Assembly (NCBI RefSeq): GCF_016887565.1 | Contig: NZ_CP069396.1 | Location: forward strand, 11,762,001 to 11,826,000 | Source of the DNA: Archangium violaceum | Lineage (GTDB): Bacteria > Myxococcota > Myxococcia > Myxococcales > Myxococcaceae | Direction: 5' to 3' | DNA: 64,000 nt | In this document: positions 49,613 to 55,330 of the stretch, piece by piece | Layout of the letters: each line of letters starts with the position of its first letter | How positions within the stretch are numbered: the first letter of the stretch is position 1 | Notes under the pieces: generated by a model | The model's database searches: none | What the model was told of the DNA's origin: nothing | What the model saw: the letters and a program-made list of their open reading frames with translations, nothing else | Translations under genes and position numbers: made by a program

Positions 49613-50803
49613 ATGACCTCCCCTTTCGCCGAGCACTTTCCCGCCTTGCGGTCGGGCTTCAGCTACATCGACAACGCCGCCGGTGCGCAGGTGCCCTCGC
49701 ACACCATCGACGCCATCACCGGGTTCCTCACCAGCGGCAGCTGCAACGTGGGCCAGCCCTACGCGGCCTCCGTGCGCGCCACCGAGGTGAAGGCCCAGGC
49801 CCGCGCCGCTACCGCCGAGTTCCTCCACTGTCAGCCCGAGGAGGTCATGCTCGGCACCAGCGCGACCGCCCTCACCTTCCAGCTCTCGCGCGCCTTCTCC
49901 CGGCTCTTCCAGCCCGGAGACGAGGTCATCGTCTCGGAGCTCGAGCACGAGTCCAATGCCAGCCCCTGGCGCTGGCTGGAGGCCCAGGGCGCCGTGGTGA
50001 AGGTGTGGCGCGCGCACTGGCCCGAGGGACGTCTGGAGCTCGCGGATCTGCGCTCGCTGCTCACCTCGCGCACCCGGCTGGTCGCGGTGACGGCCGCCGC
50101 CAACTCGGTGGGCACGATGCCGGATGTGGCCGGTGCCACCGAGCTGGCCCACTCCGTGGGCGCGTGGAGCATCATCGACGCGGTGCACTCCAGCCCGCAT
50201 CAGCTGCCCGACATGAAGGGCTGGGACGCGGACTTCGCCGTGTTCTCGCCGTACAAGGTCTTTGGACCCCACATGGGCTGCATGTACGTGCGCCGCGAGC
50301 TGCTGCCCCGGCTGCCGGCGGACAAGCTCTGGTTCGTCCCCGACGACAGCCCCCAGAAGTTCGAGCCCGGCACCGCCAACCACGAGGCCCTCGCGGGCTG
50401 GCTGGGCACGCTGCGCTACGTGCGCGAGGTGCTCGGTGGTGGGCAGCCCGGGCGCGCGGGACTGGAGCAGGCCTATCGCCGCATCGAGTCCCTGGAGCGT
50501 CCGCTGCTGGAGTCCGCGCTGGAGCGGCTGCGCGCCCACCCGCGCGTGCGGCTGTACGGCATCCCCGAGCCCAAGGGTCGGACGGCCACCTTCTGCTTCA
50601 ACGTGCCCGGAGTCGCGCCGCGCGCGGTGGCCGAGCACCTCGCCCAGCGGGGAGTGGGCGTGGCCGCGGGCCACTACTACGCCACCCTGGCCATGCAGGC
50701 GCTGGGCCTCATGCCCGAGGGCGCGGTGCGCGTCTCGCTGCTGCACTACAACACCCTCGCGGACGTCGACCGGCTCCTCGCGGCCCTGGACGCGCTACCT
50801 TGA
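49613..50803 (+). CDS. Class V aminotransferase, cysteine desulfurase-like (SufS-like subgroup)
   Basis: The 396-residue PLP enzyme has 'FSYIDNAAGAQVPSHTIDAI', a PLP-loop 'LGTSATALTFQLSRAFSRLFQPGDEVIVSELEHESNASPW', 'SIIDAVHSSPHQLPDMKGWDADFAVFSPYKVFGPHMGCMYV' with the Schiff-base Lys, and C-terminal 'YNTLADVDRLLAALDALP'. The sequence matches the VCR1094-type, cysteine-desulfurase-like subfamily, which has an undefined substrate. The ATG at 49613 is used; an ATG at 49598 (GAGG nearby) would add five residues. It overlaps the convergent cyclase gene by a few bases at the 3' end. Confidence 0.9.
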   Translation: MTSPFAEHFPALRSGFSYIDNAAGAQVPSHTIDAITGFLTSGSCNVGQPYAASVRATEVKAQARAATAEFLHCQPEEVMLGTSATALTFQLSRAFSRLFQPGDEVIVSELEHESNASPWRWLEAQGAVVKVWRAHWPEGRLELADLRSLLTSRTRLVAVTAAANSVGTMPDVAGATELAHSVGAWSIIDAVHSSPHQLPDMKGWDADFAVFSPYKVFGPHMGCMYVRRELLPRLPADKLWFVPDDSPQKFEPGTANHEALAGWLGTLRYVREVLGGGQPGRAGLEQAYRRIESLERPLLESALERLRAHPRVRLYGIPEPKGRTATFCFNVPGVAPRAVAEHLAQRGVGVAAGHYYATLAMQALGLMPEGAVRVSLLHYNTLADVDRLLAALDALP

Positions 50804-51493
50804 GTCCGTCGCGGTGAGCGGCACGAAGCGCAGCCCGAAGGCCCAGGCCGGAAAGGCCGTCGCCGCGAACCCCGAGCCCCACCCGTACAGCAGCTCATCG
50901 AGTGGAACGCCGAGCAACCTGCCCCGCAGCAGGAGGCTCGGCCTCCACGTGCGCTCGAAGACACCGGGGACGAGCCACTCGAAGACCAGGCACAGCCCGA
51001 GGTAGATGGCCGCCGACACCAGTGCGCCCCACAGGCTCGGCGCCACCAGGTCCGGGCGCGTCACCAGCAGGCCCACCACCACCCCCACCATCGCCAGCAC
51101 CGAGGCGTAGAGGATGGGCACGCCCACGGCGAGCAACAGCCCGGCCACCGCCAGCACGAGGACGATGGCGCCCACCGCCCGGGGCCACGGCCTCACGCCG
51201 CCGCTCTGGGAGACCACCGTCCGGCGGAACACCACCGCGTAGGCACTGCACGAGAAGGCACCGAGCCCGACGACGAACAGCACGTCCTCGATGCCGAAGC
51301 CGAGCCGGTCCGCCAGGTCGAACAGGAACCGCGGGGCCCAGTACTCCGGATAGAACAGCCACTCGGTCGCCGCGAACGGGAGCGAGCACAGCGCCACCCG
51401 CCCCATCAACCCGCGCAGGTCCGCGCGCACGAGCCAGACGAGGGCCCCCGGAATCAGGAACAGGAGCGCCAGGACGAGGAACTCGTACGTCAT
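50795..51493 (-). CDS. Two-domain lycopene-cyclase-like membrane protein
   Basis: The 232-residue protein has about seven membrane helices. It resembles a fusion of the two small lycopene cyclase halves (CrtYc/CrtYd type), with the conserved acidic motif FGIEDVLF in the first half and VPLDELLYG in the second, where the normal motifs read P-x-E-E-x-x-F/Y. These Asp/Glu residues are the proposed acid for cyclising polyenes. It is the last gene of a five-gene operon that also encodes two UbiA prenyltransferases. Its ATG follows the UbiA stop by a few bases. The reaction in this organism is not known. Confidence 0.75.
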   Translation of the reverse strand: MTYEFLVLALLFLIPGALVWLVRADLRGLMGRVALCSLPFAATEWLFYPEYWAPRFLFDLADRLGFGIEDVLFVVGLGAFSCSAYAVVFRRTVVSQSGGVRPWPRAVGAIVLVLAVAGLLLAVGVPILYASVLAMVGVVVGLLVTRPDLVAPSLWGALVSAAIYLGLCLVFEWLVPGVFERTWRPSLLLRGRLLGVPLDELLYGWGSGFAATAFPAWAFGLRFVPLTATDSR

Positions 51494-51500
51494 GGAGCTC

Positions 51501-52391
51501 TCAGCTTGCCGCCAGCAGGAGGAGGGGGAGCGCGACCGCCGCCAGGGTGGCGGTGATGGCGGCGGCGACCCGGACCTGGACGCGCTTCGAGCCGGGAGGC
51601 GCGGGACGCACCAGCGGCACCGCGAGCGCCGCCAGCGCGGGCACGAGCCACCACGCCCCCGCGCTCAGTCCCACCGACGCCATGCCGAACGGGGCCAGCG
51701 CCAACGTGAGCCCGTTGAGCGCCAGGATGCCCCACGAGGCCCGCTCGCCGCCTATCCGTGCTGGCAACGTGAGCTTGCCGCTCTCCCGGTCCGAGGGCTC
51801 ATCGGGGAGCGCGGTGGCGATGGAACAGGCCAGGTGGGTGGGCAGCAGGAGCGCGACGAGCGCCCAGGGGAAGCTCCCGAGCGCTCCGCCCTGCGCGAGG
51901 TACCCATAGAGCGGCAACACCCCGGCGACACCCACCGCCTGCAACGCCTCACCACCGCCCCGATAGGAGAGCCGGAGTGGCGGATAGCTGTAGGCCCACA
52001 GCAGCCCCAGCGCCAGCACCGCCAGCGGCACGAGCAGCGGTGCGCCACGGGCCACCGCCAGCCCCACCGACACGGCCAGCAGCGAGCCCGCGCAGACCAG
52101 GGCGGCCGTGCCGATCGCACGCGGCGAGAGCCGGCCCTCGACGAGCACGCGGGAGCCGCCGGAGAAGACGGTGGGCGTCCGGTTGCGGCGGTCGGTCTCC
52201 TGGTCCGCCCAGTCGTTGGCGTAGACGATGAAGAGCTGGTCGAGCAGCCCGAAGAGCTGGACACCCACCAGCGTCCCGAGGTCGAGCGGCTGTCCCCGCA
52301 TGCGCACGGCGACGAGCTGACCGAGCAGCAACGGGAGCGCGATGTACGACTGCGAGGGCAACCGCGAGGCCTGGAGCCACGCCCGGCTCAC
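51501..52391 (-). CDS. UbiA-family prenyltransferase (first copy upstream of the cyclase)
   Basis: The 296-residue protein has about eight membrane helices and the UbiA aspartate motifs: 'VYANDWADQETDRRNRTP' (NDxxDxxxD) and, later, 'LPDEPSDRESGKLTLPARIGG' (DxxxDxxxGK). It resembles MenA/UbiA enzymes that move a prenyl chain to an acceptor. The GTG start at 52391 overlaps the stop of the upstream gene (GTGA). It shares the LSYRGGGEALQAVGVAGVLPLYGYLAQ region with the second UbiA of the operon. Confidence 0.86.
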   Translation of the reverse strand: MSRAWLQASRLPSQSYIALPLLLGQLVAVRMRGQPLDLGTLVGVQLFGLLDQLFIVYANDWADQETDRRNRTPTVFSGGSRVLVEGRLSPRAIGTAALVCAGSLLAVSVGLAVARGAPLLVPLAVLALGLLWAYSYPPLRLSYRGGGEALQAVGVAGVLPLYGYLAQGGALGSFPWALVALLLPTHLACSIATALPDEPSDRESGKLTLPARIGGERASWGILALNGLTLALAPFGMASVGLSAGAWWLVPALAALAVPLVRPAPPGSKRVQVRVAAAITATLAAVALPLLLLAAS

Positions 52392-53113
52392 GACGTGGCA
52401 TCCCGCGAGAGACCCAGACGCCGCGCGGCCTCGGTGCGCAGATCGGTGAACGGGAGGTCCCAGCGGCGCTCGCCATCGAGCCGCCAGGCCTTGACGGGGA
52501 TGAGGTCCGCCTGGGCGAGCACCTGGTGCAGGTGCGCCTCCTCGCGAGGCTCGCGACAGAAGAAGAAGGGGTTGCGGAACTCCGGGCCCTGGAGCTGCCC
52601 GTATTTGGCGTCGTTGCGGGCGATGAGCTCCAGCAACGTCTGGCGCCGGGCATCGAGGTAGTCGAAGAACACCAGGTCGAACGGACCGATGGCCGCACGC
52701 GCCTCGGGCTGGCGCGACACCCAGCGGGCCCAGTCGTAGCCGTACAGGAAGTCGTGGGCGTAACGGAAGCGCAGCTCCGACTTGTTGCCGAAACCACGGC
52801 ACAGCCCCACCACCCGGCGCGCGAAGCCCTCTATCTCTCCCGGCCCTCCGGCGTTCCACATGCAACAGGCCAGGTAGTCGAGGTCCCAGAAGATGTTGTC
52901 CGGGAAGTCCTCCGCGAAGACCCGCACCAGCTCGCCCAGCCCCTCGGCGAAGGCTCGCGTCCGCGCCACGTCACCCAGGCCGTCCATCACCCTCGCCGCC
53001 AGCTCCACGGGCAGGAGCGCGCGCGAACGGCTGGGATCGAGCGAAGCGCCCCCGCCGAGCAGCGGCGCCAACCGCTCGAGTCCCGCGAGGATGTCTTCCG
53101 GCAGTCCTCTCAC
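52388..53113 (-). CDS. Unknown conserved-looking protein between the two UbiA genes
   Basis: I do not recognise this family. From the GTG at 53113, which overlaps the upstream UbiA stop, the protein is 241 residues, soluble-looking and helical, with a conserved-looking run: 'DNIFWDLDYLACCMWNAGGPGEIEGFARRVVGLCRGFGNKSELRFRYAHDFLYGYDWARWV' and 'DYLDARRQTLLELIARNDAKYGQLQGPEFRNPFFFCREPREEAHLHQVL'. There is no membrane helix or signal. Its central place in a tightly overlapped operon suggests a pathway-specific accessory or enzyme. Confidence 0.7.
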   Translation of the reverse strand: MRGLPEDILAGLERLAPLLGGGASLDPSRSRALLPVELAARVMDGLGDVARTRAFAEGLGELVRVFAEDFPDNIFWDLDYLACCMWNAGGPGEIEGFARRVVGLCRGFGNKSELRFRYAHDFLYGYDWARWVSRQPEARAAIGPFDLVFFDYLDARRQTLLELIARNDAKYGQLQGPEFRNPFFFCREPREEAHLHQVLAQADLIPVKAWRLDGERRWDLPFTDLRTEAARRLGLSRDATS

Positions 53114-54060
53114 CCAGGCCCTCTCCAGCTCGCGACGAGCACCAGCGCCGACAGCGTGAACGTGCCCCACCAGATGGCGCGATGCAGCTCCGCCTTGTAC
53201 GCCGACTGCGCGCCGAAGGCATTCGTCACCGCGCCCGGACTCCTCCGCACCAACCGCACACCGAACAGTAACGTGAGCAGCACGGCCGGCACCACCGCAC
53301 CGGGCGGCGGTGCGTCCTCGGTCAGACAGGCCGCCACGAGCCAGAGGAGCGCGCCCAGCGCCAGCAGCACCTCCGAGCCCGCGCGGACCACCGCGTTGCC
53401 CAGGAGCGTGGTGAAGGTGCGCTTGCCTCCGGCCCGGTCGCTCTCCTCGTCGGACAATCCACTCGCCAGGGCGCTCGACAGCGACAGCGCCAGCATGCCC
53501 GGGGACAGAGCCACCAGCCATGCGGGTGCCCACTCGCCACACTGGGCATAGGCATGCAGCGCGGGGAGCACGACGCCCACGCCCACCATCTCCAGCAACT
53601 CACCGCCGCCCCGGTAGTTCAGCCGCAGCGGCGGCAACGTGTAGGCGACGAAGACGAACAGGCCCAGCGCCGCCAGGTGTGGCAACAGCGGACGCTCCAG
53701 GGCGAGCCCCGCCACCCACGCAACGAGCAGCGCCACGACCCCCGCCCCCAGTCCCGCCGCGAGCACCGCCCCGGCGGAGAGGATGCCATCGGGGATCGTC
53801 TTCGGCGAACAGCCCTGGGGGAACATCCGGCGCTTGAGGACATCCACCTCGCGGTCTCCCCAGTCGTTGAGCAGCACGACGAAGGCGACATCCGCGAGCA
53901 TCCACACCGCGCCGAAGAGGAGCGCCCCCGCGGACAGCCGGCCCGCGGTGGCCGCGCCCACGGCCTGGCCGAACAGGGCCGGGACGAACACCTTCGGCCA
54001 GCTGGCCGGCTTGAGGGCGTACCACCACCGCGCCGCGAGACTCATCGACCCGACACGCAC
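53110..54060 (-). CDS. UbiA-family prenyltransferase (second copy, regulator-proximal)
   Basis: The protein is about 316 residues with about eight membrane helices. The first aspartate motif is 'VVLLNDWGDREVDVLKRRMFPQG' (NDxxDxxxD); the second is 'GLSDEESDRAGGKRTFTTLLGN'. A central LNYRGGGELLEMVGVGVVLPALHAYAQ is shared with the other UbiA, so the two are paralogues. GTG at 54060 has GGGAGG four bases upstream; ATG at 54045 is the alternative. It follows the XRE regulator gene with about 20 bases between. Confidence 0.86.
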   Translation of the reverse strand: MRVGSMSLAARWWYALKPASWPKVFVPALFGQAVGAATAGRLSAGALLFGAVWMLADVAFVVLLNDWGDREVDVLKRRMFPQGCSPKTIPDGILSAGAVLAAGLGAGVVALLVAWVAGLALERPLLPHLAALGLFVFVAYTLPPLRLNYRGGGELLEMVGVGVVLPALHAYAQCGEWAPAWLVALSPGMLALSLSSALASGLSDEESDRAGGKRTFTTLLGNAVVRAGSEVLLALGALLWLVAACLTEDAPPPGAVVPAVLLTLLFGVRLVRRSPGAVTNAFGAQSAYKAELHRAIWWGTFTLSALVLVASWRGPG

Positions 54061-54080
54061 CGCGCCTCCCAACGTGAGAA

Positions 54081-54482
54081 TCAGCGCGTGAGCGCGGTGG
54101 CGATGACGTTGAGCACCTTGAGCTGGGACGGAGACAGGGTGCGCAGCGAGCGCGCGAGCTTGCGCAGCTCGGGGGAGCGCTCCTCCTTCGCCGGCAGCGA
54201 ATCCACCCAGGCCGTCACCTCGGTGTGACTCAGGCTCAGCAGCGTGTCCGAGGGAATCTTCAGGATGATGCTCAGCCGGCGCAGCGTCGGGACGCTGGGC
54301 ATCATCCCCCCGCGCTCGATGCGGCCGTACACGCCAGGAGCCAGACCGACCTTCTCGGCCGCTTCCGCCTGGGTGAGCCCCGCGCGCAGCCGGGCGGCAC
54401 GCGCCGCCGCCCCCAGTGCGAGGGCCAGCTTGTCATCCATGCGCTGCTGCGAGACGGGCGGAGAGATGCGTTTCGATGCCAT
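54081..54482 (-). CDS. XRE-family transcriptional regulator
   Basis: The 133-residue protein has a central Cro/CI-type helix-turn-helix ('LALALGAAARAARLRAGLTQAEAAEKVGLAPGVYGRIERGGMMPSVPTLRRLSIILKIPSDTLLSL') and a short Arg/Lys/Leu-rich end. It is the first gene of the UbiA/lycopene-cyclase-like operon, so it may control it and itself. The segment 54483-54766 upstream is the probable promoter region. Confidence 0.88.
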   Translation of the reverse strand: MASKRISPPVSQQRMDDKLALALGAAARAARLRAGLTQAEAAEKVGLAPGVYGRIERGGMMPSVPTLRRLSIILKIPSDTLLSLSHTEVTAWVDSLPAKEERSPELRKLARSLRTLSPSQLKVLNVIATALTR

Positions 54483-54766: not shown

Positions 54767-55330
54767 ATGACCGGGAAGACGAGACTCGCACTGGTTGGAC
54801 TGCTCGCGGGCTTCATGGCGCTGAGCACCGCCAATATGCGCGCGGAGGCCAGGACGAGCCCGCAGGCCATCTCTCAGCAACAAGGCGGGAGCACCGGCAC
54901 TGGCACGGGGACCAGCACCGGCACAGGTACTGGCACTGGCGGAGCTGGCACCACCCAGGACCAGGACACCCTCGACCCGTCCAGGACGAATGACACGGGT
55001 GACACGAGCACGCTGGACGAGCCCGGCACTGGCGGCGCGGGCACCACGCAGGACGAGGGCCCCCTCGACGAGCCCGGCACCGGCGGCACGGGAACGACCC
55101 GGGACGAGAGCACGCTGGACGAGCCCGGCACCGGCGGCGCGGGCGCCGACGACATGACGGATGATCCGGCGCTCGACGAGCCCGGCACCGGCGGCGCGGG
55201 TGACAACGGGCAGGACCGCGTGGACGACGAGGACGAGGGTTTCCTCCGCGACGAGGGGCTCGACCACCAGGAGGGGCAGGCCGATCAGGACACCGTGAAT
55301 CCTCCGGGCACGGGCCAGCAGCAGCGCTAA
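54767..55330 (+). CDS. Repetitive secreted Gly/Thr/Asp-rich protein
   Basis: The 187-residue protein has a signal peptide (LALVGLLAGFMALSTANMRAEA) and then a low-complexity body: GT/TG dipeptides, then four copies of LDEPGTGGAG (or GTGGTG) separated by acidic spacers, then DEDEGFLRDEGLDHQEGQ. It is intrinsically disordered and probably exported. GAGGAGACGGAACG precedes the ATG. The 3' end overlaps the convergent CapA gene by 4 bases. No function is known. Confidence 0.72.
   Translation: MTGKTRLALVGLLAGFMALSTANMRAEARTSPQAISQQQGGSTGTGTGTSTGTGTGTGGAGTTQDQDTLDPSRTNDTGDTSTLDEPGTGGAGTTQDEGPLDEPGTGGTGTTRDESTLDEPGTGGAGADDMTDDPALDEPGTGGAGDNGQDRVDDEDEGFLRDEGLDHQEGQADQDTVNPPGTGQQQR

Follow-up and report, generated by a model that had tools for sequence, protein, structure and literature searches.

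A four-gene cassette of Archangium violaceum as a candidate pathway for a specialized isoprenoid

Here, we analyze a 64,000-nucleotide stretch of the Archangium violaceum chromosome (contig NZ_CP069396.1, positions 11,762,001 to 11,826,000; hereafter the window). It carries a compact minus-strand gene set encoding two membrane prenyltransferases of the UbiA superfamily (UbiA1 and UbiA2), a protein of no recognized family between them (UNK), and a membrane protein of the Lycopene_cyc family (CYC). We find that, in distant bacteria, gain or loss of one of these four genes mostly goes with that of the others. On balance, we favor the reading that they form a self-contained, translationally coupled cassette that builds a special isoprenoid, neither menaquinone nor a standard carotenoid. 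Their joint gain and loss means that there is probably one terpene-type lipid product, beyond vitamin K and the usual carotenoids; the best reading of this product is a prenylated, usually cyclized, and perhaps exported isoprenoid. What carries this interpretation is the gene set with its motifs, the way it is co-inherited in the surveyed genomes, and its separation from the menaquinone (men) and carotenoid (crt) genes, from which we infer the pathway steps. A preliminary description of this DNA had suggested an unusual terpenoid as a possible product, and our analysis supports that suggestion.

Three further genera of the family share the order UbiA1-UNK-UbiA2-CYC, as does Sorangium. Within the phylum, the same 20 of 195 genomes hold all four genes. 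UNK occurs in 22 of these genomes (the 20 full carriers and two others, G003 and G143), UbiA1 in 20, UbiA2 in 21 (20 at 301 bits or more, and G003 through another UbiA gene and a remnant), and CYC in 21 (20 at full length and a remnant in G003). If the genomes were independent, the chance of this 20-in-22 containment would be about 2e-25. In the phylum searches, no more than 11-14 first-look candidates were scored for each genome, and misses are possible; a Sorangium-like match is absent from the 195 genomes, and this group probably lies outside that set. The preliminary description had let its proposal depend on the genes occurring together in other genomes, which they do.

The two partial carriers differ in what they retain. 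G003, from the genus Archangium, has a whole UNK together with UbiA1, UbiA2, and CYC in pieces (L107 7270-8709). G143, Myxococcus sp. RHSTA-1-4, has a lone UNK (on the contig of locus L013), for which the ratio of nonsynonymous to synonymous substitution rates (dN/dS) is 0.24-0.32 against two relatives. Taken together, G003 and L013/L143 make up a decay series of the cassette.

Across the genome collection, we detected 21 relatives of UNK. In 18 of these 21 loci, UbiA1 is the gene immediately upstream and shares the strand (in L019 with a broken frame); in one (L023) it is about 4 kb away, and two (L013 and L014) lack an intact copy. UbiA2 is present at the same locus in 12 of the 21 and CYC in 9. 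Among the nine loci that lack UbiA2, eight belong to genomes with a UbiA2 match elsewhere (209.7-276.4 bits); the remaining genome, that of L013, has solely a 61-bit UbiA match. Of the 14 genomes searched through their UNK loci, two gave a CYC match, namely those of Sorangium So ceGT47 and a Leptospiraceae metagenome-assembled genome (MAG). Outside the Cystobacterineae and Sorangium, 11 of 13 genomes carry UbiA1, UNK, and UbiA2 without a CYC match. In the phylum of the Leptospiraceae MAG, only 1 of 392 genomes has UNK, namely that MAG itself.

CYC lies ~22 kb downstream in G015, and 1.4 kb separates UbiA2 from CYC in G139. The Leptospiraceae MAG (L031) and the distant phylum member G187 (L104) hold all four genes, with UbiA1-UNK transcribed away from an operon of an ATP-binding cassette (ABC) ATPase, an ABC-2 permease, UbiA2, and CYC. 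The presence of ABC-2 genes in the UbiA2-CYC operon suggests export of the product. On a plasmid of Ilyobacter polytropus, CYC adjoins UbiA2 (42% and 46% identity over the aligned parts, respectively). These distant loci and the plasmid thus indicate that UbiA1 tends to pair with UNK, and UbiA2 with CYC. A search of plasmids returned UNK solely at E values of 3 or more, and zero matches to UbiA1.

The fine arrangement of the genes is conserved as well. UbiA1 and UNK overlap by 4 bases in 22 of 24 measurable junctions, UNK and UbiA2 by 4 bases in 23 of 24 same-strand junctions, and the gap between UbiA2 and CYC is 7 bases in the window and in 15 of the 25 cases measured. The junction table has 26 rows, of which L140 and L016 are one locus, and start codons were picked by similarity. 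L107 is excluded from the junction counts, and L013/L143 offers no junction; apart from this, the lone or broken sets (L013/L143, L014, L019, and L107) are included in the counts. Pairwise dN/dS, which is not a single-lineage test, ranges from 0.15 to 0.49 for the four cassette genes and from 0.04 to 0.13 for the adjacent regulator gene of the XRE family; the former values indicate purifying selection on the cassette genes. Because the 4-base overlaps recur and pairwise dN/dS stays within this range, the arrangement is more than chance.

The preliminary description had included XRE in the unit as a built-in regulator. This part did not hold: of the loci examined, solely some from the genus Archangium have XRE next to the unit, and XRE is missing from the G003 stretch. 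The conserved unit is four genes, and XRE is a genus-level neighbor outside it. The flanks seen in the window (PGA, XRE, cysteine-desulfurase, and quinone-oxidoreductase-like genes) likewise lie beside the unit solely in Archangium-genus loci. Thus, the unit can move or persist independently of its neighbors. Ten flanking open reading frames (ORFs) from five loci of other genera have no shared theme; their families include an amino-acid permease, a royal-jelly-type protein, an MgsA ATPase, a mannosyltransferase, a UvrD helicase, and a sigma-54 activator. In genus g15, an FAD/NAD-binding protein is encoded divergently upstream of the cassette (L139 337-1845 and L147 950-2458), ~2.3 kb upstream of UbiA1 and past a permease and an ORF of 237 or 230 amino acids.

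UbiA1 and UbiA2 both pass the gathering cut-off of PF01040 (34.2 bits; Table 1). Each has the two Asp-rich motifs with which the UbiA superfamily handles metal-bound diphosphate, and the early recognition of two paralogs with intact motifs was borne out by their invariance across relatives. Neither protein scores above 46 bits with any of the NCBIfam models listed, whose cut-offs are 102-555 bits. With the MenA model NF004751 (cut-off 264), UbiA2 reaches 45.5 bits and UbiA1 41.8; with the MenA model TIGR00751 (cut-off 102), UbiA1 reaches 20.5 and UbiA2 is not among the matches listed. The closest NCBIfam model of UbiA2 is MenA, and that of UbiA1 is an unnamed "prenyltransferase," with MenA second. 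The nearest curated families are of the MenA, homogentisate-phytyltransferase, and chlorophyll-synthase type, and it is solely for this reason that we favor an aromatic acceptor.

A phylogeny of 31 UbiA proteins places UbiA1 and UbiA2 in separate clades (94/97 and 89/84, respectively), both apart from MenA, although some of its branches are long and a number of its forks weak. Each clade includes members from Archangium, Sorangium, Leptospiraceae, Calditrichia, and Nannocystis, and the six UbiA2 proteins with a CYC neighbor cluster together (82/91). If the two clades hold, the UbiA paralogs would have parted before the pair spread. One further UbiA protein of the same genome (L110 6512-7399; PF01040 56.9 bits) reaches no NCBIfam cut-off and has the longest end branch.

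UNK has zero matches in Pfam, NCBIfam, and PADLOC, so the preliminary view of it as an unknown partner between the UbiA genes stands; its 29 relatives have weak, scattered Pfam matches only. Across an alignment of 29 sequences, down to 30% identity, H120, D121, F122, G125, D127, W128, and W131 are invariant in the core motif, as are R180, N181, P182, F183, F185, and R187 in a second motif, and N73, D77, R156, D168, Y171, and E192 elsewhere. Apart from F122, G125, P182, F183, and F185, these residues look like an active site, and we take UNK to be a soluble protein, presumably an enzyme. The AlphaFold2 (AF2) model is helical, with a predicted local distance difference test (pLDDT) score of 93.6. 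Every Foldseek match listed has an E value above 1; terpene and prenyl-diphosphate synthases appear among the best 50 of 66 rows, at noise level (query template-modeling score 0.16-0.20). The best VIA match is to designed helical proteins (Z 5.7), the best hit in a viral structure library has an E value of 0.48 (probability 0.08), and the best match of the UNK profile to Protein Data Bank (PDB) sequences has an E value of 0.15. The predicted structure of UNK is thus without a convincing solved or viral match, which does not in itself prove a new fold.

The preliminary comparison of CYC with CrtYc/CrtYd, drawn from its acidic motifs, is supported: CYC is a protein of this superfamily with two acidic pairs. 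It matches PF18916 (cut-off 27 bits) in its C-terminal half, and all 14 members of a first CYC alignment match this family. The CrtYc and CrtYd proteins of the same genome score 29.6 and 26.7 bits with PF18916, below the 46.1 of CYC; the Pfam name is therefore no evidence for lycopene as the substrate. With TIGR03462 (cut-off 39.4 bits), in contrast, CrtYc and CrtYd score 80.1 and 68.1 bits, while none of 23 CYC proteins (CYC and 22 relatives) matches at E values up to 10. An ordinary lycopene cyclase was ruled out for CYC on these grounds, together with the separate CrtYc and CrtYd. In a second CYC alignment, of 25 rows, every row retains acids at positions 69, 199, and 200, with residue 199 being D or E throughout. 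We propose that CYC may be a proton-initiated cyclase.

The AF2 model of CYC has seven long helices (pLDDT 83.0), and every listed Foldseek match has an E value above 1. The best VIA match is MvINS, a mycobacterial Insig homolog (4xu4; Z 7.0, root-mean-square deviation 4.9, 167 residues aligned); Z drops to 4.0 for the next unrelated row, and values below 8 are in the range seen for models without a true match. Judging from this model (50795-51493), the CarR-type cyclase fold may be linked to Insig. The CYC profile has a best E value of 0.75 against PDB sequences. With hhalign, CYC gives no usable alignment to CrtYc and a weak one to CrtYd (E 0.0094, probability 4%) in the C-terminal half over GVPL(E/D)E.

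Some relatives of CYC are unusual in form or setting. In Sorangium cellulosum So0157-2 (L015 7638-8816), an in-frame insertion yields an open frame of 392 amino acids. Distant relatives occur on plasmids of Methylophaga (L047 7992-8684), Croceicoccus (L049 3150-3856), and Polaromonas (L048 5896-6279). That of Methylophaga lies beside resistance-nodulation-division (RND)/TolC efflux, copper, and arsenic genes, and that of Polaromonas has TolC/RND genes ~4 kb away. A UbiA gene is annotated in none of these three plasmid stretches.

The host's own MenA (NF004751 356 bits, TIGR00751 214 bits) adjoins MenD (474 bits, cut-off 244), and CtaB (heme O synthase) is also encoded elsewhere in the genome. 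A carotenoid cluster at C1:11277718-11284233, ~0.53 Mb from the cassette, has crtB (PF00494 250 bits) and individual genes for CrtYc and CrtYd; two more of its genes belong to the crtI family (503 and 274 bits, cut-off 238). Because MenA, CtaB, and the crt cluster with CrtYc/CrtYd sit elsewhere, the cassette is neither for menaquinone synthesis nor an ordinary lycopene cyclase. A menaquinone-enzyme identity for UbiA1 and UbiA2, which the preliminary description had named as part of a result that would count against it, was ruled out, as both remain below the curated cut-offs and the genome has its own MenA beside MenD. Among myxobacteria, CrtYc-CrtYd is reported for Cystobacterineae, a CruA-type cyclase for Sorangiineae, and a CrtL-type cyclase for Nannocystineae (PMC9304148); Sorangium would therefore own CYC besides another lycopene cyclase. 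A figure legend in the same paper gives "cyc: possible lycopene cyclase" together with a fused CrtYcd, tied to no locus here (PMC9304148).

We propose a working scheme for the cassette. UNK would prepare or hand over a small polar acceptor, or act on the product of UbiA1. At the membrane, UbiA1 would attach a prenyl chain drawn from the common prenyl-diphosphate pool, and UbiA2, the paralog that travels with it, would perform a second prenyl transfer. As an optional last step, the acidic pairs of CYC would protonate the end of the prenyl chain and a ring would close; the ABC-2 transporter of two distant lineages would then flip or export the product. The order of these steps (UNK/UbiA1, UbiA2, CYC, export) is suggested by the linkage and the loss pattern, as CYC is the gene most often absent. 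A more specific version, which we hold tentatively and consider rather doubtful as a whole, is that Myxococcota, the Leptospiraceae MAG, and a Calditrichia MAG share a new pathway: a UbiA1-UNK-UbiA2 core would make a doubly prenylated, undescribed lipid, with CYC and the ABC-2 exporter as add-ons, and UNK would be the first member of an enzyme family whose fold is new. UNK and the product stand a fair chance of being novel.

Several points weigh against a dedicated isoprenoid cassette. It includes neither a prenyl-diphosphate synthase nor acceptor-making genes. The UbiA1 and UbiA2 clades fall below the star level of the tree tool. The 20 full carriers represent five genera, and their shared ancestry inflates co-occurrence. 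CYC was unmatched in 12 of the 14 genomes searched through their loci, Sorangium So ceGT47 (L014) carries UNK-UbiA2-CYC but no intact UbiA1, and the Ilyobacter plasmid stretch, which alone was searched, has CYC-UbiA2 without UbiA1 or UNK. From G143 and G003, UNK might function without UbiA proteins, or it might just decay last. The Croceicoccus relative of CYC, which is outside the 25-row alignment, has K at the position of residue 199, and a CYC whose best structural neighbor is an Insig homolog might be no enzyme. The cassette could also belong to carotenoid synthesis, since the myxobacterial carriers probably make carotenoids and the FAD-dependent protein of g15, encoded on the opposite strand in two genomes, has a weak similarity to CrtD/CrtI (22-27 bits; cut-offs 238 and 550).

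These last points would fit a C50-type carotenoid branch, in which lycopene would receive C5 units from the UbiA proteins, as from CrtEb, and CYC would close the rings as CrtYe/CrtYf do. The preliminary description had drawn this comparison. In its favor, a UbiA enzyme with a CarR-type cyclase follows the known C50 logic, CYC matches PF18916, and the host genome has a carotenoid cluster. However, the comparison is weak, and we consider this branch unlikely. The crt cluster is distant and has its own CrtYc and CrtYd, TIGR03462 recognizes those two proteins and none of the CYC set, the ten flanking ORFs from five other loci include no crt family over its cut-off, and UbiA1-UNK-UbiA2 is found without CYC, which was unmatched in 11 of 13 genomes outside the Cystobacterineae and Sorangium. 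To our knowledge, the C50 pathway also has no place for UNK. Alternatively, one or both UbiA proteins could cyclize a prenyl diphosphate themselves, with UNK and CYC tailoring the hydrocarbon. The UbiA superfamily includes terpene cyclases that retain both Asp motifs, but the nearest curated models of UbiA1 and UbiA2 are prenyltransferases, in a comparison made without terpene-cyclase sequences, and we regard such an activity as improbable.

About as improbable, or slightly more so, is that CYC is an Insig-like sensor of lipids or isoprenoids that regulates or chaperones UbiA2. The MvINS alignment stands well clear of the next unrelated row, but its Z score is within the no-true-match range, the listed Foldseek rows give no support, and the retained acids are what would be expected of a proton donor, with the Croceicoccus protein as the exception. 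A quinone side branch, in which the UbiA proteins prenylate naphthoate or a related quinol and CYC cyclizes the side chain to a cyclic menaquinone or chromanol-like lipid, seems about as unlikely as the C50 branch and, in our estimate, a little more so. MenA models are the best NCBIfam relatives of UbiA2 and the second best of UbiA1, and new quinones whose prenyl chains are modified have been described from myxobacteria (PMC8955186). Against this, both proteins score far below the MenA cut-off and the true MenA sits beside MenD; furthermore, myxoquinones, whose men-like cluster has mxqL as its prenyltransferase, are reported from most of the Cystobacterineae screened (PMC8955186), whereas the cassette occurs in 20 of 195 genomes. 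We also considered that CYC might hydrate the side chains of myxoquinones, but set this aside because the cassette and myxoquinones differ in distribution.

A special isoprenoid cassette thus remains our preferred interpretation. Its near all-or-none inheritance in the surveyed genomes suggests that there is probably one defined product. The central protein belongs to no Pfam or NCBIfam family, CYC lies outside the curated lycopene-cyclase domain, and the latter is a warning that proteins annotated as lycopene cyclases can serve other pathways. Among the papers listed in a literature survey, as judged by titles and abstract openings, this gene set does not appear. Four small genes are easily co-expressed, which makes the product and the role of UNK directly testable.

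Within the window, all five ORFs are on the minus strand and follow one another head to tail in the order XRE, UbiA1, UNK, UbiA2, CYC, with the GTGA overlaps that the preliminary description had noted (Table 1). The operon that it had described is supported. The start of UbiA1 is uncertain (ATG 54045, GTG 54060, or TTG 54072) and lies directly downstream of the XRE end. CYC is tail to tail with a plus-strand cysteine-desulfurase-like gene (TIGR01976 434 bits). The host genome is 13.2 Mb in one contig, with the cassette at about 11.813 Mb. A promoter scan detected none, and one terminator-like site was found, inside CYC, compared with 1.4 in shuffles. PADLOC defence models matched XRE alone, and a defence-system identity was dropped for this reason. 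A plus-strand ORF of 187 amino acids (54767-55330) adjoins XRE; it has GTGT and DEPGTGG repeats by eye and no Pfam match.

Table 1. Positions of the cassette genes, their motifs and junctions, and the associated transporter operon (window coordinates unless a locus is named).
Feature	Position	Strand	Details
XRE/HTH_3 regulator gene	54081-54482	minus	133 aa; HTH_3 49.7 bits (Pfam)
UbiA1, UbiA-superfamily membrane prenyltransferase	53110-54045	minus	311 aa from ATG 54045; PF01040 70.8 bits
UbiA1 first Asp motif NDWGDREVD	53842-53868	minus	N60, D61, D64, D68 invariant in 22 sequences
UbiA1 second Asp motif DEESD	53437-53451	minus	D199, D203 invariant in 22 sequences
UbiA1/UNK GTGA stop/start overlap	53110-53113	minus	4 bases
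UNK	52388-53113	minus	241 aa, GTG start; no recognized family
UNK core motif HDFLYGYDWARW	52721-52756	minus	H120 to W131
UNK motif RNPFFFCR	52553-52576	minus	R180 to R187
UNK/UbiA2 GTGA stop/start overlap	52388-52391	minus	4 bases
UbiA2, second UbiA-superfamily prenyltransferase	51501-52391	minus	296 aa, GTG start; PF01040 80.8 bits
UbiA2 first Asp motif NDWADQETD	52191-52217	minus	N59, D60, D63, D67 invariant in 19 sequences
UbiA2 second Asp motif DEPSD	51789-51803	minus	D197, D201 invariant in 19 sequences
CYC, Lycopene_cyc-family membrane protein	50795-51493	minus	232 aa; PF18916 46.1 bits
CYC first acidic pair E69-D70	51284-51289	minus	both invariant in 23 sequences
CYC second acidic pair D199-E200	50894-50899	minus	E200 invariant, D199 nearly so (23 sequences)
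ABC ATPase/ABC-2 permease operon with UbiA2 and CYC	L104 5411-9187; L031 1764-4899		Pfam

Compared with known systems, the cassette combines familiar parts in a different setting. UbiA1 and UbiA2 share the PF01040 domain and both Asp motifs with MenA-like members of the UbiA superfamily, but stay under all listed NCBIfam cut-offs and form clades that exclude both the E. coli MenA and the host's own MenA. C50 carotenoid modules consist of a CrtEb-type UbiA enzyme and CrtYe/CrtYf, a CarR-type cyclase. The cassette resembles them in having a UbiA enzyme with a CarR-type cyclase, and differs in having two UbiA proteins and UNK, with the crt genes and CrtYc/CrtYd elsewhere. CYC is like CrtYc/CrtYd (CarR-type) in its PF18916 match and in one acidic pair per half; it differs in its motifs (GIEDVLF and PLDELLYG, as opposed to PLEEYLFF and PLEEILFF), in the lack of a TIGR03462 match among all 23 relatives, and in being unlinked to the crt cluster. 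The seven-helix cyclases Pyr4, XiaE, and DmtA1 are 227-250 amino acids long and have no Asp-rich motif (PMC6173783). In DmtA1, E60 is essential and D214 important, and mutants support a proton-initiated closure of the prenyl chain after prenyl transfer (PMC6173783). CYC has 232 amino acids, seven long helices in its model, and acids in both halves. DmtA1 may serve as a working model for CYC, though not as its family.

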